From Rhodobacteraceae bacterium CG17_big_fil_post_rev_8_21_14_2_50_63_15 (GTDB lineage Bacteria; Pseudomonadota; Alphaproteobacteria; Rhodobacterales; Rhodobacteraceae): a stretch of 57,464 nucleotides of DNA. The translations under genes were made by a program, and so were the position numbers. This document shows positions 1,952-9,173 of the stretch, piece after piece. The stretch is taken from positions 247-57,710 of the forward strand of contig PFEY01000029.1 of the NCBI GenBank assembly GCA_002783205.1. Reading direction: 5' to 3'. How positions within the stretch are numbered: position 1 is the stretch's first letter; each line of letters begins with the position of its first letter. The notes below the pieces were generated by a model. It saw only the letters and a list, made by a program, of their open reading frames with translations. It was not told where the DNA came from and did not search any database.

Positions 1952-3151
1952 TCAGCCTCGCGGCACGGCCGTACCCGCGTTTTCGCCAACCCTATCGCGT
2001 CGCGCCTTGGCCGATGCCAGCGTGTCGCGCAATTCGGCCTCCATCTTCTTGAGCTCCTCCTCTGCTTTGGCGCGCTTGGCCTTGCCGTCGTCGGCAATCT
2101 GAAGGCTTTCCTGAATGGTGCCGATGAGATCGGCATTGGCCTGTTTCACCGCCTCGATGTCGAACACGCCGCGCTCCATTTCCTGACGGATCATCTTGTT
2201 GCTCTCGCGCAGGTTCTTGGCGTTGGCGGTCAACAGTTCGTTGGTGAGGTCATTGGCGTCACGCACCGCTGCCGCTGCCTCGGCAGAGCGCTGAATCGTC
2301 ACCGCCTGGGCCAGTTGGGTTTCCCAGAGAGGCACCGTATTCACAAGGGTCGAGTTGATCTTGGTCACGAGGCTCTTGTCATTTTCCTGCACCAGCCGGA
2401 TCGAAGGCAGCGACTGCATTGTCACCTGACGGGTGAGTTTGAGATCATGCACCCGGCGTTCGAGATCGTCGCGCGCGGCGCGGAGATCGCGCAATTCCTG
2501 TGCTTTCATCACCTGTGCGGCCTCGGGTGCGGCCTGCACGGCCGCCTCGGCGGCGGGAATGTCCGTGCTGTCCAGATCCTTCAGCTTGGCCTCGCCCGCG
2601 GCGATGTAGAGCGCCAACTCGTCGTAGAAGGCGAGCGTCTTTTCATACAGCATGTCGAGCGACTTTATGTCCTTCAGGAGCGTGTGCTCATGCACCAGAA
2701 GATCGTCGGTAATCTTGTCGATCTGGCCCTGCACCTGCTCGAACCGAGCGGTGAATTTGGCAAAGGGCGCGGCGCGGCCCAAAAGTTTCTCCCACCAGGA
2801 CCGTTCGCGACGCACGTCGAGTTCGGAGACGGCAAAGCCCCGGATGGTGGTCACGATTCCGCGCAGGCTGTCGCCCGCAGGCCCGACATCCTTGTTGCGC
2901 ACGCCTTGCAGCATGGCCTGCGAGATTTCCTGCAATTCAGCCTGTGCCGCGGACCCGAAGGACACGATGGACTGGGTGTCACCCATGTCGATTTCAGCCA
3001 TGCGGCGGGTGATTTCCGCGCTTTGGGCCGTATCGGCCTGTTCAAGCGGCACGATGGCATTGGCCTCGGACGGTGCGGGCAGGATGGCCCGGCTGACGGC
3101 CTCGACTTCGGCAAGAACGGCTTCGGCCTTGTGGCGGGTGGTCTCTGACAT
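1952..3151 (-). CDS. telA: Toxic anion resistance protein, TelA family
   Basis: The 399-residue protein matches the TelA/KlaA family. It is mostly helical, with conserved blocks such as S-I-V-S-F-G-S-A-A-Q, W-W-E-K-L-L-G-R and L-D-M-L-Y-E-K-T near the middle and a charged coiled-coil C-terminus. TelA proteins are linked to resistance to tellurite and other toxic anions and to some antimicrobials; the mechanism is not settled and action at the cytoplasmic membrane is presumed. It lies 13 bases after the xpaC-like gene and 7 before the DUF2927 gene, the usual xpaC-telA pairing. Length and start look complete. Confidence 0.9.
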   Translation of the reverse strand: MSETTRHKAEAVLAEVEAVSRAILPAPSEANAIVPLEQADTAQSAEITRRMAEIDMGDTQSIVSFGSAAQAELQEISQAMLQGVRNKDVGPAGDSLRGIVTTIRGFAVSELDVRRERSWWEKLLGRAAPFAKFTARFEQVQGQIDKITDDLLVHEHTLLKDIKSLDMLYEKTLAFYDELALYIAAGEAKLKDLDSTDIPAAEAAVQAAPEAAQVMKAQELRDLRAARDDLERRVHDLKLTRQVTMQSLPSIRLVQENDKSLVTKINSTLVNTVPLWETQLAQAVTIQRSAEAAAAVRDANDLTNELLTANAKNLRESNKMIRQEMERGVFDIEAVKQANADLIGTIQESLQIADDGKAKRAKAEEELKKMEAELRDTLASAKARRDRVGENAGTAVPRG

Positions 3152-3164
3152 GGAGTTGGTCCCT

Positions 3165-4067
3165 TTACGCTAAATCTCTGGTTTCAAGATGGACGCCCTC
3201 TCGCTCGAGCCGGTCGCGCAGCACCTCGATCTCGATATCGAGATCGGTTGTGCTGTCGGCCATGAGCGCGCGGGTCTTGGCGGTGAAATTCTGTTCGAGA
3301 TCGGCGAGCAGCGCGAGGTATTTGTCGCGCGCCTGCGGATTGGGGGCGCGGGCATGAAGATCGGCAAACTTGATGGTCGCGTCGCGTGCGCCCATCAGAT
3401 AGACGCCGAGATACTTGCGCGCCGCGGTAAGATCGCGCGGGTCATCTTCGACGGTGCGCAGCATGTCGCGCACGGTGCTCTGAAGCCGTTCAAGCCGAGC
3501 CTCTGCTTGACGGTCGCCGGCGCGCTTGATGGCATCTGTCATGGCCTTTAGATAGCCCTCAGCCTGATCCACGACGCGCGCCACCCGATCGCTCTGAAAG
3601 CTGTCGACGCCCTCCATCCCCTTGTCCTTGAGCGGGTCGAGGCCAAAGGCAAATCCGTGCAGCGCAGTCCCCAAGACTGCGTAAATCAGTGGCGCGGCGC
3701 TCACGCCACTGGTGGCAAGACCCGCGACCCCGAGGCCGAGGCCGGTGAGCAACGAGGCAAACATCTTGCGTGGGATGGCGGGACGGCGGGCGATCTTGCG
3801 GGCCTCATAGGCCTCTTGTGCCAGAATCCCCTCGCGGGTGAGCCACGCAGCAAGCAGGAGCGCACCGAGTGCCGTCAGGTTCAGGGCCAACTCGGTTGGA
3901 CCGGATCCAAAGGCCCGCGCTGCCAGAGGCAAAGGCGCAAAAAACAGAAGGTTAACCCGTCCGCCAGCGCGGGTGCGCCGCGCGCCGCGAAAGCTGCCGC
4001 GCTCGCTAGGGGTTTGGGGTGGGCGACCTTCCTCGGGGCTGAACTTGCCGCCGTAGCGCTTTGACAT
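3165..4067 (-). CDS. xpaC: XpaC-family membrane protein (5-bromo-4-chloroindolyl phosphate hydrolysis family)
   Basis: The 300-residue protein has a charged N-terminus (MSKRYGGKFSPEEG), two or three hydrophobic segments between about residues 35 and 140, and a soluble helical C-terminal domain typical of XpaC. The family name comes from a Bacillus phenotype; the biochemical role is unknown. XpaC is regularly paired with TelA, as here. The ATG at 4067 shares its A with the stop of the upstream 27-codon gene (TGATG), implying translational coupling. A GTG codon directly before the ATG is a possible alternative start. Confidence 0.82.
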   Translation of the reverse strand: MSKRYGGKFSPEEGRPPQTPSERGSFRGARRTRAGGRVNLLFFAPLPLAARAFGSGPTELALNLTALGALLLAAWLTREGILAQEAYEARKIARRPAIPRKMFASLLTGLGLGVAGLATSGVSAAPLIYAVLGTALHGFAFGLDPLKDKGMEGVDSFQSDRVARVVDQAEGYLKAMTDAIKRAGDRQAEARLERLQSTVRDMLRTVEDDPRDLTAARKYLGVYLMGARDATIKFADLHARAPNPQARDKYLALLADLEQNFTAKTRALMADSTTDLDIEIEVLRDRLEREGVHLETRDLA

Positions 4068-4150
4068 CACACGCCCCCTGCGGCAGCGACAAAGAAAATC
4101 AGCGCCACCAACAGAAGAAACGAGAGTTTCTGGAGTCCGGTTTCGCTCAT
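4067..4150 (-). CDS. Small 27-residue membrane protein leading the xpaC-telA operon
   Basis: ATG at 4150 opens a 27-codon frame: MSETGLQKLS, then the hydrophobic FLLLVALIFFVAAA, then G-G-V. This is a single transmembrane helix with a short cytoplasmic head. Its TGA overlaps the xpaC ATG (TGATG), and a GGGGGC purine-rich stretch lies just upstream of its own ATG. The hydrophobic pattern and coupling argue for a real gene. It may be a small partner or sensor for the XpaC/TelA membrane complex (inference). Confidence 0.6.
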   Translation of the reverse strand: MSETGLQKLSFLLLVALIFFVAAAGGV

Positions 4151-4264
4151 GCTGCCCCCGAGGCTTTCAAACTTCGCGGTTAACTTAGGTCATGCATGGC
4201 AGCCTTGCTAGGGGGAAGATTCAAGGCTTGGCCACATTCCCAACCCGTCGGGTGAGCCAGACCA
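4151..4264 (-). promoter_or_regulatory. Intergenic leader ahead of the xpaC-telA operon
   Basis: This 114-base gap separates the GntR gene stop from the small membrane protein start, with both genes on the minus strand. It contains an AT-richer stretch (reverse-strand AAGTTAACC) but no confident -35/-10 pair. The operon promoter probably lies here, or transcription may read through from the GntR gene. Confidence 0.35.
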
Positions 4265-4993
4265 TCAGGATTTGGCGCGCGCGGCCATGACATCGCGACC
4301 AAGCACGAGGGTATAGGCCTCGAGCGCCGTCAGCGCGTCTTCGGCTGCTTCGGCATCGTGCCGCTCCAGGCCGTCCGCGATGCGGATATGCAGGCCCACG
4401 ATGGCCTCGCGCGAGCGGGCGGTGAAGGTGATCATGTTCATCAGGGGTTGCATCGCCTCGACCGCGCCCGCGAGCTGGTAAGACAGCACCGGGTTGCCCG
4501 CACTGTCCACCAAGGCGCGATGATAGGCCACGTCAGAGGCGCAGAAGGACTCGTCTGACAGGCCCGGTTGGCTCTGGCGATGAATTTCGGCGCGCATGGT
4601 GGCGAGCGTATCGGGCGTTCGGCGCCGGGCGGCAAGCTGTGTGCAAGCACGCTCCAGAGCATAGCGTGCCTCGCAGGCGACGTCGAAGCTGATGGCATTC
4701 ATCGACAGGAGAAGCGTTGCGGTGGTGATCTGCTGCCCATAGGCCTCGGGATAGCTGAGGCGGTTGACAAAGGCCCCGCCATTGGCCCCGCGCTGCGTGC
4801 GGATGAGCGCCTGCGCGGCGAGCCGCTTCAGGCCTTCGCGCACGGTGGGGCGGGAGACCGCGAAGTGATCGGCGAGTTCTGCCTCGGAGGGCAACCGCGC
4901 ATCGACAATGAGCCGCCCCGCGACGATCTCTTCGCGGATCGCCTCTGCGATCTGGGCCGAGAGATCGGCCTTGTTGTCCGGGTCAATTTTCAT
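4265..4993 (-). CDS. GntR/FadR-family transcriptional regulator (FCD domain)
   Basis: The 242-residue protein has an N-terminal winged helix (residues about 10-75, including R-L-P-S-E-A-E-L-A and S-R-P-T-V-R-E-G-L-K-R-L) followed by a helical FCD ligand-binding domain. That domain carries the Asp/His pattern D-V-A-Y-H-R-A-L-V and a later H-I-R-I-A-D-G, typical of metal-assisted carboxylate binding. It is transcribed divergently from the DUF2182-DUF1326-DinB-dmdA genes across about 60 bases that contain palindromes. The likely role is a metabolite-responsive repressor of that operon and of itself (inference). The ligand is unknown; a DMSP-derived acid is a reasonable guess. Confidence 0.85.
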   Translation of the reverse strand: MKIDPDNKADLSAQIAEAIREEIVAGRLIVDARLPSEAELADHFAVSRPTVREGLKRLAAQALIRTQRGANGGAFVNRLSYPEAYGQQITTATLLLSMNAISFDVACEARYALERACTQLAARRRTPDTLATMRAEIHRQSQPGLSDESFCASDVAYHRALVDSAGNPVLSYQLAGAVEAMQPLMNMITFTARSREAIVGLHIRIADGLERHDAEAAEDALTALEAYTLVLGRDVMAARAKS

Positions 4994-5026
4994 TTGTCTT
5001 ACATTTAAATGTCTGACAATTTAAAT
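4994..5026. promoter_or_regulatory. Divergent operator/promoter with FadR-type palindromes
   Basis: The gap between the GntR gene and the DUF2182 gene holds a perfect 12-base palindrome ACATTTAAATGT (5001-5012), the near-palindrome TGTC-T-GACA (5010-5018), and a second ATTTAAAT (5019-5026). GT-N3-AC half-sites are characteristic of FadR-subfamily GntR operators. The AT-rich cores probably also hold the divergent -10 elements. The assignment to the adjacent GntR protein is by position. Confidence 0.55.
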
Positions 5027-5054: not shown

Positions 5055-5813
5055 ATGATTGCGGCGCAGGTCAGGCGGATGGGCGGGGGGCACTGGCTGG
5101 TGCTGTTTGGCCTTATCCTCGGCGCCTGGGGGTTGCTTTATGCGATGGCGCTGCCGCAAGATCTGCGTGATGGCGCGGTGCTCTATGGTGCGGATTTCCT
5201 GCAAAGTCTATGTATTCTGACGCCTGATGCTGCCGGGCTCGGGCGCATAATCCTGATGTGGGCGCTGATGTCTGCGGCGATGATGGCACCCACCGCGCTG
5301 CCTGCCTTTGCGACCTACGAGGAGCTGAGCCATACTGGCGACACGCGGTTTGGCGCGCTGGTGGCGGGGTATCTCGGCGTTTGGCTGGGGTTTTCGGTGA
5401 TCGCGGCGGGCGCGCAGATGGCGCTCTTTCAGGCGGGGTTGCTGACAGCCTTTGGCGACAGCCGCTCTGGTGTGCTGTCGGCGGTTTTGCTGGCCGTGGC
5501 GGGGGTCTATCAGTTCAGCGCTGTGAAAGAGGCATGCCTGTCGAACTGCCGCCGCCCGCTGTCGTTCTTCATGCAGCATTGGGATGAGGGCGCGCTGCGC
5601 AACGGGGTGCGGCTGGGGCTGGTGTGCCTGGGCTGTTGCTGGGCGCTGATGGCGCTGGCTTTTGTTGGAGGCGTGATGAACCTCGCCTTCATGGGGCTGG
5701 CGACGGTGATCATGGTTCTTGAGAAACTGCCCGATCTGGGGCGCTGGCTGACACGGCCCTTGGGGGCTGCGCTGCTGGGGGCGTCGGTCTGGATTCTGTT
5801 CACGACGATCTGA
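5055..5813 (+). CDS. DUF2182 integral membrane protein
   Basis: The 252-residue protein has about six to seven hydrophobic helices and the DUF2182 hallmark W-A-L-M-S-A-A-M-M-A-P-T-A-L-P. It also carries Y-Q-F-S-A-V-K-E-A-C-L-S-N-C-R-R-P and L-G-C-C-W-A-L-M, with Cys residues that could bind metal. The family is annotated as predicted metal-binding membrane proteins and often pairs with DUF1326, as here (16 bases apart). The ATG at 5055 is chosen because GGGAGG (5043-5048) sits at good spacing; an in-frame ATG at 5025 falls inside the operator palindrome and has no ribosome site. Function is otherwise unknown. Confidence 0.85.
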   Translation: MIAAQVRRMGGGHWLVLFGLILGAWGLLYAMALPQDLRDGAVLYGADFLQSLCILTPDAAGLGRIILMWALMSAAMMAPTALPAFATYEELSHTGDTRFGALVAGYLGVWLGFSVIAAGAQMALFQAGLLTAFGDSRSGVLSAVLLAVAGVYQFSAVKEACLSNCRRPLSFFMQHWDEGALRNGVRLGLVCLGCCWALMALAFVGGVMNLAFMGLATVIMVLEKLPDLGRWLTRPLGAALLGASVWILFTTI

Positions 5814-5829
5814 GAGAGGAGACCGGGAA

Positions 5830-6459
5830 ATGGCTTTGGATACGGTGGGCACGGTGCCCTGGGCGATCAAGGGGGAGCTGATCCTCAACTGTAACTGCAC
5901 GGTGTTCTGCCCCTGCGTGGTGAGCTTGGGCAAGCACGCGCCGACCGAAGGATACTGTCAGGCCTGGTCGGGGGTGCGCATCGACGAGGGTTTTTACGGC
6001 GACGAGGATCTGTCGGGCCTCAACGTCGGTCTGATGCTGGAAATCCCCGGCCTGATGGCGCGCGGCAACTGGAAGGCGGCGGCCTTCATCGACGAGCGCG
6101 CGAATGAGGCCGCTTATGACGCCTTGGTCAATATTTTCAGCGGCAAGGCGCGCGGCACCACGGGCCTCTTTGGCGTGCTGGTCAGCGAGTTTCTGGGCGC
6201 TGAGCGCGCGCCGGTCATTTTCGAGACCGAGGGCAATGCCCGCCGCCTGATGGTGGGCAAGAAGATCCAGGGCGAAGTGGTCCCGGTGCCGGGCCATGGC
6301 GGCCAGGATATTGTCGTGACCAATACCGAATACTGGATGGGGCCGGATATCACCGTCGCCACCGCCACCAAGGGCCGCGTGCGCGCCTTTGGCCGGGTCT
6401 GGGATTTCGACGGGCGCAGTGCGGAAATCTGCCAGATTGATTGGAAAGGTCCGCGCTGA
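5830..6459 (+). CDS. DUF1326 domain protein with Cys-rich metal-site motif
   Basis: The 209-residue soluble protein carries the family motif N-C-N-C-T-V-F-C-P-C at residues about 20-29, a compact four-Cys cluster likely to bind a metal or act in thiol chemistry. The rest is a beta-rich fold with no signal peptide. DUF1326 and DUF2182 co-occur in many proteobacteria; no function is established. Its TGA overlaps the ATG of the DinB gene (TGATG), so translation is probably coupled. The position between GntR and dmdA implies expression with DMSP metabolism. Confidence 0.85.
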   Translation: MALDTVGTVPWAIKGELILNCNCTVFCPCVVSLGKHAPTEGYCQAWSGVRIDEGFYGDEDLSGLNVGLMLEIPGLMARGNWKAAAFIDERANEAAYDALVNIFSGKARGTTGLFGVLVSEFLGAERAPVIFETEGNARRLMVGKKIQGEVVPVPGHGGQDIVVTNTEYWMGPDITVATATKGRVRAFGRVWDFDGRSAEICQIDWKGPR

Positions 6460-6974
6460 TGCTCTTGGCGGCGGATCATGTGCGCCTGATGGCGCGCTAC
6501 AATGCCTGGCAGAACGGGCAGATCATGCGCGCGGTGGATGGCGTGAGCCGCAAGCTGCTGACCGAGGATCACGGGGCCTTCTTTGGCTCGATCCTGGGCA
6601 CGCTCAATCATATTCTCTGGGCGGATCGGCTCTGGCTGCATCGCTTCGGGGCCAAGGTTGCGGCGCCCGAGGGCGGGATGGAGGCGAGCACCACGCTCAC
6701 CCCCACGGGGGCCGCATGGAGTGCGGAGCGGTTCGCCACCGATGGCGCGCTCCGCCTTTGGGCGCGTGATCTGCACAGCATTGACCTCACGGGCGACCTC
6801 AGATGGTTTTCCGCTGTCAAGGGCGCGGAGGTCAGCCGCCCGATGCCGCTGTGCGTGACGCATGTCTTCAACCACCAGACCCACCACCGGGGGCAGGTGC
6901 ATGCGATGCTGACGCGCGCGGGCTTGCCTGCGCCTGTAACTGATCTTGTTTTCATGCCCGAGAAGGCCCAATGA
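6459..6974 (+). CDS. DinB/YfiT-family metal-dependent protein
   Basis: The 171-residue protein is a four-helix-bundle DinB-like protein. The three metal ligands expected of the fold are visible: His in T-L-N-H-I-L-W-A-D and two in N-H-Q-T-H-H-R-G-Q-V. Relatives include thiol-dependent transferases (mycothiol, bacillithiol, glutathione types) and proteins of unknown function. The ATG at 6459 overlaps the DUF1326 stop; an in-frame TTG at 6441 was rejected because it lies inside DUF1326. Its own stop overlaps the dmdA start (ATGA). A thiol- or metal-linked role beside DMSP demethylation is conceivable but unproven. Confidence 0.82.
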   Translation: MLLAADHVRLMARYNAWQNGQIMRAVDGVSRKLLTEDHGAFFGSILGTLNHILWADRLWLHRFGAKVAAPEGGMEASTTLTPTGAAWSAERFATDGALRLWARDLHSIDLTGDLRWFSAVKGAEVSRPMPLCVTHVFNHQTHHRGQVHAMLTRAGLPAPVTDLVFMPEKAQ

Positions 6975-8083
6975 CCGCTCCGCTTCTGTCGCCGTCGCGC
7001 CGATTGCGCCGCACGCCTTTTTCCCAAGGGGTAGAGGCGGCGGGGGTCAAGGCCTATACGGTCTATAATCACATGCTCTTGCCGACGGTGTTTCGCTCTG
7101 TCGAGGAGGACTATCGCCATTTGAAAGAGGCGGTGCAGGTCTGGGACGTGGCCTGCGAGCGGCAGGTGGAATTGCGCGGGCCGGATGCGGGTCGTCTGAT
7201 GCAGATGCTGACGCCCCGCGACCTGCGCGGCATGACGCCGGGACAATGCTATTACGTGCCCATCGTCGATGAGACGGGCGGGATGCTCAACGATCCGGTG
7301 GCGGTGAAGCTGGCCGAGGATCGCTGGTGGATTTCGATCGCCGATAGCGACCTGCTCTATTGGGTCAAGGGGATTGCGCAGGGCTGGCGGCTGGATGTGC
7401 TGGTGGATGAGCCGGACGTGAGCCCGCTGGCGATTCAAGGCCCGCGGTCCGATGACCTGATGGCGGCGGTTTTTGGCGATGCGGTGCGCGAAATCCGGTT
7501 CTTCCGCTTTGGCGTGTTTGATTTTCAGGGGCGCGACATGGTGATCGCGCGCTCGGGCTATTCCAAGCAGGGCGGGTTCGAGATCTATGTCGAGGGCGGC
7601 GATATCGGCATGCCGCTCTGGAATGCGCTGATGGAGGCGGGGCGCGCATGGGACGTGCGCGCCGGATGCCCCAATCTGATCGAGCGGATCGAGGTTGGAT
7701 TGCTGAGCTATGGCAACGACATGACCGATGACAACACGCCGCATGAATGTGGGTTGGGAAAGTTCTGCAACACCCATACGGCGATAGGCTGTATCGGACG
7801 GGATGCGCTGCTAAGGGTGGCGCGGGACGGGCCGGTGAAGCAGATCCGGGCGATTGCAATCGAGGGTGCGCCGGTGCCACCCTGCACTGAATGGTGGCCG
7901 ATCCTGTCCGAGAGGAGCGATTGCGTGGGGCGGGTGAGTTCGGCTGTCTGGTCGCCGGATTTTCAGACCAACGTCTCGATCGGCATGGTACGGATGACCC
8001 ATTGGGAGGCCAGCACGGAACTTCGGGTGATGACGCCCGACGGCGCGCGCCGCGGGGTAGTGCAGAAAGGGTTCTGGGCCTGA
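6971..8083 (+). CDS. dmdA: Dimethylsulfoniopropionate demethylase DmdA
   Basis: The 370-residue protein belongs to the GcvT/aminomethyltransferase fold and has the N-terminus S-P-S-R-R-L-R-R-T-P-F plus V-Y-N-H-M-L-L-P-T that I recognise from roseobacter DmdA. Other blocks are W-D-V-A-C-E-R-Q-V-E-L-R-G-P-D-A and the late G-L-L-S-Y-G-N-D-M-T. DmdA transfers a methyl group from DMSP to tetrahydrofolate in the cytoplasm, giving methylmercaptopropionate. Immediate linkage to acuI, as in Ruegeria pomeroyi, supports the call over generic glycine-cleavage T protein. The start overlaps the DinB stop by 4 bases (ATGA), tying it to the upstream three-gene module. The dmdB, dmdC and dmdD genes are not in the window. 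Confidence 0.88.
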   Translation: MTAPLLSPSRRLRRTPFSQGVEAAGVKAYTVYNHMLLPTVFRSVEEDYRHLKEAVQVWDVACERQVELRGPDAGRLMQMLTPRDLRGMTPGQCYYVPIVDETGGMLNDPVAVKLAEDRWWISIADSDLLYWVKGIAQGWRLDVLVDEPDVSPLAIQGPRSDDLMAAVFGDAVREIRFFRFGVFDFQGRDMVIARSGYSKQGGFEIYVEGGDIGMPLWNALMEAGRAWDVRAGCPNLIERIEVGLLSYGNDMTDDNTPHECGLGKFCNTHTAIGCIGRDALLRVARDGPVKQIRAIAIEGAPVPPCTEWWPILSERSDCVGRVSSAVWSPDFQTNVSIGMVRMTHWEASTELRVMTPDGARRGVVQKGFWA

Positions 8084-8087
8084 GCGT

Positions 8088-8117
8088 GGGAGCGAGGGGC
8101 CAGCCCCTCGCGCTCCC
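8088..8117 (+). terminator. Hairpin between dmdA and acuI
   Basis: The arms GGGAGCGAGGGGC (8088-8100) and GCCCCTCGCGCTCCC (8103-8117) pair with a two-base bulge and a very tight loop. No U-tract follows, so it may be a weak terminator, attenuator or mRNA-stability element reducing acuI relative to dmdA. It is directly followed by a copy of the extragenic repeat at 8117-8141. Confidence 0.5.
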
Positions 8118-8141
8118 CGGGATATTTCAAGCCAGAAGAAG
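8117..8141 (+). repeat. Extragenic repeat element, copy 1
   Basis: The segment reads CCGGGATATTTCAAGCC followed by AGAAGAAG. It is the most diverged relative of the GGGTATTT...CCAAGAAGAA element also found after murD (19886-19941) and after ribD (34938-34968). All copies are intergenic and just downstream of a gene end. Confidence 0.5.
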
Positions 8142-8177
8142 CGGGGGGTTGGCTCTGCGATGGGAAAGGAGAGTGAC

Positions 8178-9173
8178 ATGTTCAAGGCATTGGTCGTGGA
8201 GAAGGACGAGGAGAGCGGCAAGACATCCGCCGCTGTGCGCGAGATCGCCGAGAGTGATCTGCCCGAGGCGGGGGTGACGGTCGCGGTCGAGTATTCGACG
8301 GTGAATTACAAGGATGGGCTCTGCATCGGGCCGGGCGCGGGTCTGGTCCGTAAGTATCCGCATGTGCCGGGAATCGACTTTGCCGGAACGGTCGAGGTCA
8401 GCGACGACGACCGCTACAAGCCTGGCGACAAGGTGGTCCTGACCGGCTGGCGCGTGGGCGAGGCGCATTGGGGCGGCTACGCGCAGAAGGCGCGGGTCAA
8501 GGCCGACTGGCTCGTCCCGCTGCCCGAGGGGCTCGATGCGCGGGCAGCGATGGCGGTAGGTACGGCCGGGTTCACCGCAATGCTGGCGGTGATGGCGTTG
8601 GAGGATCACGGGTTGCGCCCTGGTCATGGCGAGGTGCTGGTCACGGGTGCCGCAGGCGGCGTGGGGTCGGTGGCGACGGCCGTTCTCGCGCATCTGGGCC
8701 ATCAGGTGACCGCCGTCACCGGGCGTCCCGAGCAGGAAGCTTATCTGCGCGGGCTGGGCGCGAGCCGCATCGTGCCGCGGGAAGAGTTCGCCGAGGTCAC
8801 GAAGAAGCCGCTGGAGAGCGAGCAATGGGCGGGCTGCGTGGACGCGGTAGCGGGCGTAATGCTGGGTCGTGTTCTCAAGCAGATGAGTTATGGCAGTTCG
8901 GTTGCGGCGATCGGCCTTGCCGGCGGGCCGGTCATCGAGGGGGCGCTGATCACGCCCTTTATCCTGCGCGGAGTCAATCTGTTGGGGATTGACAGCGTGA
9001 TGCAACCCTATGGCAACCGGCTGCGCGCCTGGGAGAGGATCGCGCGCGATTTGCCGATGGAGAAACTCGAGGCGATGATCGTGCCCGCGACGCTGAGCGA
9101 TCTGCCGAGTCTGGGTGCGGAGATCCTCAGGGGGCAGGTGCGGGGCCGCGTTGTGGTGGACCTCGGCGCCTGA
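8178..9173 (+). CDS. acuI: Acryloyl-CoA reductase AcuI (MDR family)
   Basis: The 331-residue medium-chain dehydrogenase/reductase has a GroES-like N-terminal half (Y-S-T-V-N-Y-K-D-G-L, H-V-P-G-I-D-F-A-G) and a Rossmann half with the NADPH motif T-G-A-A-G-G-V-G-S-V-A near residue 150. It lacks the zinc-binding set of alcohol dehydrogenases, as expected for the AcuI/YhdH group. AcuI reduces toxic acryloyl-CoA, made during DMSP breakdown, to propionyl-CoA. The ATG at 8178 is supported by AAGGAG about 6 bases upstream; an in-frame ATG at 8160 is too early. It follows dmdA after 94 bases containing a hairpin. Confidence 0.9.
   Translation: MFKALVVEKDEESGKTSAAVREIAESDLPEAGVTVAVEYSTVNYKDGLCIGPGAGLVRKYPHVPGIDFAGTVEVSDDDRYKPGDKVVLTGWRVGEAHWGGYAQKARVKADWLVPLPEGLDARAAMAVGTAGFTAMLAVMALEDHGLRPGHGEVLVTGAAGGVGSVATAVLAHLGHQVTAVTGRPEQEAYLRGLGASRIVPREEFAEVTKKPLESEQWAGCVDAVAGVMLGRVLKQMSYGSSVAAIGLAGGPVIEGALITPFILRGVNLLGIDSVMQPYGNRLRAWERIARDLPMEKLEAMIVPATLSDLPSLGAEILRGQVRGRVVVDLGA

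Follow-up and report, generated by a model that had tools for sequence, protein, structure and literature searches.

In a 57,464-nucleotide stretch of the genome of Rhodobacteraceae bacterium CG17_big_fil_post_rev_8_21_14_2_50_63_15 (contig PFEY01000029.1; hereafter the window), dmdA, the gene for the dimethylsulfoniopropionate (DMSP) demethylase, closes a plus-strand chain of four genes, PpoB2 (DUF2182)-DUF1326-DinB-dmdA, and is followed by acuI. Comparing this arrangement across the family, we found that the linkage of the upstream module with dmdA is not chance, and that the module follows the DMSP/acrylate operon as a whole, not methanethiol alone. PpoB2-DUF1326-DinB-dmdA-acuI is well supported as an operon unit, which it very probably is. 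The reading we favor, at a little short of an even chance, is an acrylate- and DMSP-responsive operon with a built-in PpoB2-DUF1326 metal-handling pair of a dedicated clade, which would cope with thiol-reactive products.

Linkage of the module with dmdA

The family sample comprised 149 genomes, one per genus, with dmdA counted above the NF009133 cut-off. The original prediction had left room for a chance association, in which the module is unlinked to dmdA elsewhere, but linkage held: dmdA is present in 64 genomes, and in 48 of these a same-strand DUF1326 gene lies directly upstream, within 1.7 kb. Eleven of the other 16 have no DUF1326 gene and five carry it elsewhere. Over the whole sample, 53 genomes have both genes, 11 only dmdA, 26 only DUF1326 and 59 neither (p 1.4e-10, uncorrected for kinship).

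To take kinship into account, an RpoB tree was built from 90 of the family genomes, 30 bearing the locus and 60 picked randomly out of 92 other full-length ones, with the window's genome forced in; 59 of the 149 are outside the tree. Genome labels for this test, and for the PF05694 and DddP tests below, were assigned by hand (48 linked, 23 further locus-type). On this tree dmdA and the locus-type module each change 26 times, and joint change is seen in about 12 of 18 independent pairs (12.1; median p 0.0005). Opposite change has a mean of 0.0, never occurring in one test direction and once in a few pairings in the other. Part of the co-change comes from joint deletion or transfer, because the genes adjoin; the test shows that the dmdA-module block behaves as a unit.

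Gene order might be ancestral and held by inertia, so that the module is a passenger without joint function. Many genera also share the surrounding neighborhood (ChrA/ChrB, aminotransferase V, photolyase, BCCT), and the linkage is nearly confined to one family, both as expected of a passenger. However, nine common flank families are all missing from 13 of the 47 fetched dmdA-linked loci, at least four of these 13 (L053, L069, L086, L090) being cut by a contig end. Moreover, the repeated co-change on the RpoB tree, the overlapping gene junctions, the conserved palindrome upstream of the module, and a linked case in another family (G340) all argue against inertia, and we consider the passenger explanation rather improbable. 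Counts of flank families, of neighborhoods and of SBP56-family genes beside the locus rest on gene labels, which are impaired by an overlap filter and by their breadth, and presence counts by tblastn use identity and length limits.

Within the window, the genes of the plus-strand chain are separated by 16 bases (PpoB2-DUF1326), -1 (DUF1326-DinB), -4 (DinB-dmdA) and 94 (dmdA-acuI; 76 from an alternative acuI ATG at 8160). The spacing of the first four genes in the original prediction was right, as were its overlapping junctions, a single base at DUF1326/DinB (TGATG) and four bases at DinB/dmdA (ATGA); it left out the divergent GntR gene and the palindrome listed with the chain below. The identification of dmdA as a DMSP demethylase gene is firm on its profile match. 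The gene behind it is named acuI-type, because the narrower AcuI equivalog NF051456 was just missed (409.7 against a cut-off of 440), while the TIGR02823 subfamily level is firm. Between these two genes lies a GC-rich inverted repeat (8088-8117), not reported by a terminator scan, which is possibly a processing or attenuation hairpin.

Features of the locus in the window, with the profile scores or sequence patterns that identify them
Feature	Position	Strand	Basis
FCD-type GntR regulator gene, divergent to the chain	4265..4993	-	PF07729 68 bits, PF00392 59 bits
Putative operator: palindrome TGTCTGACA (5010-5018) and imperfect copy TGTCTTACA (4995-5003)	4995..5018	.	inverted repeats in sequence
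PpoB2/DUF2182 (COG5486) membrane protein	5055..5813	+	PF09948 205.4 bits (gathering score 28.7)
DUF1326 protein	5830..6459	+	PF07040 168.9 bits (gathering score 25)
DinB/YfiT-fold protein	6459..6974	+	PF05163 76 bits
dmdA, DMSP demethylase	6971..8083	+	NF009133 equivalog 680.3 bits (cut-off 410)
acuI-type acrylyl-CoA reductase	8178..9173	+	TIGR02823 429 bits (cut-off 297)

Close spacing recurs in relatives, with PpoB2-DUF1326 gaps of 30 bases or less in 41 of 58 cases, DUF1326-DinB gaps of zero or less in 24 of 35, and DinB-dmdA gaps of zero or less in 15 of 28. By tblastn, the 47 fetched dmdA-linked loci contain PpoB2 in all 47, acuI in 41, GntR in 40 and DinB in 28; DinB stands downstream of dmdA in L032 and L061. 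An acyl-CoA synthetase gene is inserted between DUF1326 and dmdA in L046, L053, L063, L065 and L068, and the member tested belongs to the PRK08162 subfamily, not to the DmdB equivalog. L087, L089 and L091 have a second, divergent DmdA-type gene above the NF009133 cut-off; it belongs to an unrelated cluster, where it comes after a thiamine-diphosphate enzyme gene and one small, conserved gene.

The DUF1326 tree sets the locus-type proteins apart. They form one clade of 77 rows, 75 of them with PpoB2 first (Shimodaira-Hasegawa-like approximate likelihood ratio test 99), on a long stem and apart from most generic pairs in which DUF1326 comes first; three of the 78 PpoB2-first rows lie outside this clade. 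The tree comes from a short search and has long branches elsewhere, gene order was taken from domain coordinates, and segments below 120 residues were left out. The window's DUF1326 protein is 98% identical to its counterpart in Roseovarius autotrophicus. The clade reaches beyond the home family: it includes G340, from a third family, with DUF1326 about 40 bases upstream of dmdA, and three genomes of family f37 (L271, L274, L275) with PpoB2-DUF1326 followed by an acyl-CoA synthetase gene, of PRK08162 type in the one tested (L274). A DddP-like M24 protein is encoded near all three f37 loci, and that of L274 falls short of the DddP cut-off (398.7 bits against 600).

The neighbors of the generic, reverse-order DUF1326-PpoB2 pairs were also tried as a clue to function, and this was given up: among the 118 of 231 neighbor proteins scanned (26 loci), no family is shared beyond 5 of 118. 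One such pair (L131 in G107) lies downstream of many small genes lined up on the same strand, which may be a structure cluster of phage origin. In L260, L258, L276 and L116, a single PpoB2 gene is surrounded by DUF1326 genes in tandem or in duplicate.

Regulator palindrome and linkage with acuI

The palindrome TGTCNGACA is found in 84 of 100 GntR-PpoB2 gaps, taken with short flanks and with closely related species included. In divergent GntR gaps, those above 1500 bases being left out of the count, it occurs in 90 of 112, while the runner-up palindrome of that form occurs in 12. Its sites in 2.09 Mb of loci number 172, of which 103 lie between GntR and PpoB2. In module-bearing loci with the palindrome, the module genes come first behind it; in L035 it stands before DinB. 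A count of WWTGTCNGACAWW in the window's genome was set aside as a pointer to a single genomic operator: the sequence occurs at one place, but so does the reversed control pattern, so that the evidence lies in conservation across loci and not in the genome count.

The palindrome is a putative operator of GntR, and the genes would form one transcript responding to DMSP or acrylate. In Ruegeria pomeroyi, both DMSP and acrylate were reported to induce dmdA-acuI, and a 350-bp fragment ending inside dmdA was reported to respond to each of the two (PMC3338564). In the mechanism we propose, the divergent GntR would act through its operator on PpoB2-DUF1326-DinB-dmdA-acuI, which would be co-induced by acrylate or DMSP.

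The module often stands beside acuI where dmdA is not adjacent. Among the 23 locus-type modules without an adjacent intact dmdA, tblastn places acuI nearby in 17, and two of the six loci without it (L111, L130) end at a contig end. In 80 named relatives (the best 80 of at least 571), 45 loci have dmdA and acuI, 12 only dmdA, 21 only acuI, and two neither; in those two the contig ends shortly after DUF1326, and several other named loci are also on short contigs. Six Roseovarius loci (L152, L155, L157, L162, L163, L165) have DUF1326, acuI and GNAT genes with dmdA not nearby. A dmdA-type remnant is readable in two of 29 dmdA-less loci searched and was not found in the other 27. In L101, the interval between DUF1326 and acuI (3742-4822) holds a dmdA-type gene as three pieces in three frames, 40-42% identical and possibly reflecting a sequencing or assembly error, and the genome has no DmdA above the cut-off; in L157, a remnant of about 37 residues with 71-75% identity lies between DinB and acuI. 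Because these remnants can be read, dmdA was lost and the module kept in L101 and L157, the direction being shown only where a remnant was read. We reject a role in demethylation only, given the presence of the module beside acuI without an adjacent intact dmdA.

The same loci fit an explanation that rests on acrylate without demethylation, in which DUF1326, DinB and PpoB2 shield thiols and metal sites from the electrophile acryloyl-CoA derived from DMSP lyases. The 17 acuI-linked modules, the six Roseovarius loci, and the two remnants between module and acuI speak for it, as does DddP, found among dmdA-less genomes in 13 of 18 with the module and 22 of 67 without it (p 0.006, with only five pairs in the kinship-corrected test); acuI mutants were reported to be acrylate-sensitive (PMC3338564). 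Cupin lyases show no significant difference between the same groups (7 of 18 against 18 of 67, p 0.39). However, in six of the 47 dmdA-linked loci acuI is missing from the sequence fetched, which extends 3.5 kb past dmdA (L086 ends at a contig end), and the three f37 genomes carry the module beside an acyl-CoA synthetase gene. Moreover, GntR is present at only six of the 23 loci without adjacent intact dmdA, compared with 40 of 47 dmdA-linked loci, although the six dmdA-less Roseovarius loci retain it. We regard this explanation as unlikely, if worth keeping in view.

Proposed metal handling by the module and the methanethiol oxidase question

Under present Pfam naming, DUF2182 is PpoB2, a 'copper chaperone'. 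In an alignment of 36 sequences of both module types, M68, M72, M76, M77, C165 and C191 of PpoB2 are invariant and C161, C194 and C195 nearly so, making up an M-x3-M-x3-M helix face and a C-x3-C / C-x2-CC set. The predicted structure is helical (predicted local distance difference test, pLDDT, 82; helices 59-93, 156-166 and 180-200), and the model places the conserved Met and Cys residues in these helices. A Met/Cys-rich membrane motif fits Cu(I) better than other metals, and the pattern presumably resembles that of known Cu(I) transporters. In Marinomonas, PpoB2 was reported to hand copper to a tyrosinase (PMC2855505). Judged by this relative and by the invariant residues in predicted helices, copper has about an even chance of being the metal of the module.

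The second member, DUF1326, carries a cysteine cluster that the original prediction had spaced as C-x-C-x4-C-x-C, one residue too wide: the cluster is C-x-C-x3-C-x-C (C21, C23, C27, C29), and this form is kept in all 117 DUF1326 sequences of at least 120 residues. Among 20 locus-type sequences these four cysteines are invariant, together with H36, C43 and C201. A same-strand PpoB2 gene lies within 1.5 kb of the DUF1326 gene in 109 of the 117 cases and in none of the other eight, and in the family sample DUF1326 occurs in 79 of 149 genomes and PpoB2 in 82. This near one-to-one co-occurrence and adjacency suggest that the two cooperate, with DUF1326 as the probable soluble partner of PpoB2.

The third member, DinB, has the three-His site that was originally predicted, H51, H139 and H143, invariant in 38 of 38 sequences. 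The site and the fold family are shared with the DinB/YfiT superfamily (PF05163, e.g., PDB 3di5), although the match of 3di5 to the window's protein spans only 34 residues (E 0.0017). Some DinB/YfiT-fold proteins are metal-dependent thiol transferases.

In the mechanism we propose, PpoB2 would act at the cytoplasmic membrane, moving Cu(I) or another soft metal of this kind across it or exchanging the metal there, DUF1326 would serve it as soluble partner through its C-x-C-x3-C-x-C cluster, and DinB, where present (about half of loci), would add a step such as metal-dependent thiol transfer. Two reasons are conceivable for making the pair together with dmdA and acuI: acryloyl-CoA, methylthioacryloyl-CoA and methanethiol would disturb the Cu(I)-buffering thiol pool, or a copper enzyme would be in demand. 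Such a stress or supply purpose is tentative, and we give it somewhat less than an even chance.

Instead of copper, the module might handle another metal such as zinc or iron, perhaps to supply DMSP lyases, among which there are several metalloenzymes. The invariant three-His site of DinB and the DddP association would suit this alternative, as would the description of COG5486 as putative transmembrane metal-binding proteins (PMC2855505). On the other side stand the preference of the Met/Cys-rich membrane motif for Cu(I) and the sole studied relative, which was reported to handle copper (PMC2855505); we consider another metal very improbable.

Another possible recipient of copper is the Cu-dependent methanethiol oxidase SBP56/MtoX, which would use up the methanethiol that demethylation releases; MtoX was reported to be a copper enzyme whose gene has SCO1 copper-chaperone neighbors (PMC5739008). 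Its family, PF05694, is found in 51 of the 149 genomes and, after removal of three weak cases (G023, G031, G075), co-occurs with dmdA (both 39, PF05694 only 9, dmdA only 25, neither 76; p 9e-11). An SBP56-family gene is labeled beside the locus in five of the best 80 named relatives (L170, L174, L175, L177, L200) and also in G043 and G066. However, within the 64 dmdA genomes PF05694 is independent of the linked module (30/9/18/7, p 0.77), PF05694 was not found in the window's own genome (assembly 94.5% complete), the one SBP56 gene tested, that of L038, scores 103.8 against the MtoX equivalog cut-off of 650, and the module stands beside acuI without adjacent dmdA in the 17 loci above. Copper supply to this oxidase is thus rejected as a general explanation, given its independence from the linked module and its absence from the window's genome, and in any form we consider it improbable. 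The module belongs to the acrylate/DMSP operon, since acuI accompanies it in those 17 loci, the window's genome has no methanethiol oxidase, and the oxidase does not track it. The original idea of thiol or metal chemistry stands insofar as the family names point to metal; a role specific to methanethiol or demethylation is not supported.

As for the SBP56-family genes themselves, in L170 (Ruegeria intermedia), L174 (strain ITI-1157) and L175 (Ruegeria marisrubri) the gene, at about 2875-4305, adjoins the operon's GntR; these three of the five named relatives with such a gene are, by name or by what we take to be synonymy (L174), Ruegeria. The SBP56-family gene directly follows dmdA in G066 (L075) and lies beside a divergent PpoB2 gene in G136 (L106).

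Several results weigh against an acrylate- and DMSP-responsive operon with a metal-handling pair. The 16 dmdA genomes without an adjacent module indicate that demethylation can do without it. Of the 289 genomes sampled from the class, 25 have dmdA, 21 of them outside the home family, and of these 21 only G340 is linked; this is therefore mainly a one-family trait. Where GntR faces dmdA without the module, the palindrome is present in one of four gaps (L043). Profile scans of seven window proteins turned up no cognate copper enzyme, and since the neighbors of the generic pairs share so little, no copper partner emerges there either. The fold search with the PpoB2 model gave a best Foldseek E of 0.56 and a best Z of 5.2, the level of unrelated helical proteins, and the DUF1326 model is poor (pLDDT 56.5) and had no match at E of 0.001 or below; the lack of a fold match says nothing on fold novelty for either protein. 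The results already given for the methanethiol oxidase, the cupin lyases and the few kinship-corrected DddP pairs count on the same side.

Relation to known systems and meaning

Three described systems share parts of this arrangement. In the dmdA-acuI operon of Ruegeria pomeroyi (Todd et al. 2012, PMC3338564), acuI directly follows dmdA as in the window, whereas the window has three extra genes between regulator and dmdA; the account, in the portion of its text available, names dmdA and acuI (SPO1913, SPO1914) only and has no mention of GntR or DinB. The PpoB1-PpoB2 operon of Marinomonas mediterranea encodes the PpoB2 family (PF09948/COG5486) together with the enzyme it reportedly serves (PMC2855505); unlike it, the window has a DUF1326 partner and no tyrosinase or other copper oxidase among the scanned proteins. 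In the mtoX-SCO1-mauG cluster, a copper chaperone gene adjoins that of the enzyme for DMSP-derived methanethiol, as reported in PMC5739008, but the chaperone is of a different family from that in the window, and PF05694 is missing from the window's genome and labeled at the five named loci given above. In the open-licence literature, we found no account of the module as part of DMSP metabolism and neither DUF1326 nor DUF2182 by name; COG5486/COG5588 are mentioned there in a review on Marinomonas.

Much is known of dmdA and acuI in the marine sulfur cycle, yet in 48 of the 64 sampled dmdA genomes two or three additional genes belong to their block. That these include, in many marine roseobacter-type bacteria, a largely unstudied pair, a copper-carrier-like protein and a Cys-rich partner, hints at an overlooked tie between the use of DMSP, a sulfur compound from algae, and metal or thiol chemistry. 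Should the module handle copper, there would be a genetic link between DMSP flux and the availability of copper. More speculatively, and in our view unlikely, the locus-specific PpoB2-DUF1326 pair, joined by DinB in about half of loci, would be an unrecognized copper arm of roseobacter DMSP catabolism, which acrylate or DMSP would induce along with dmdA and acuI and on which the balance of copper and thiols during DMSP breakdown would depend; if so, the fate of DMSP in the sea could be steered by the supply of copper.

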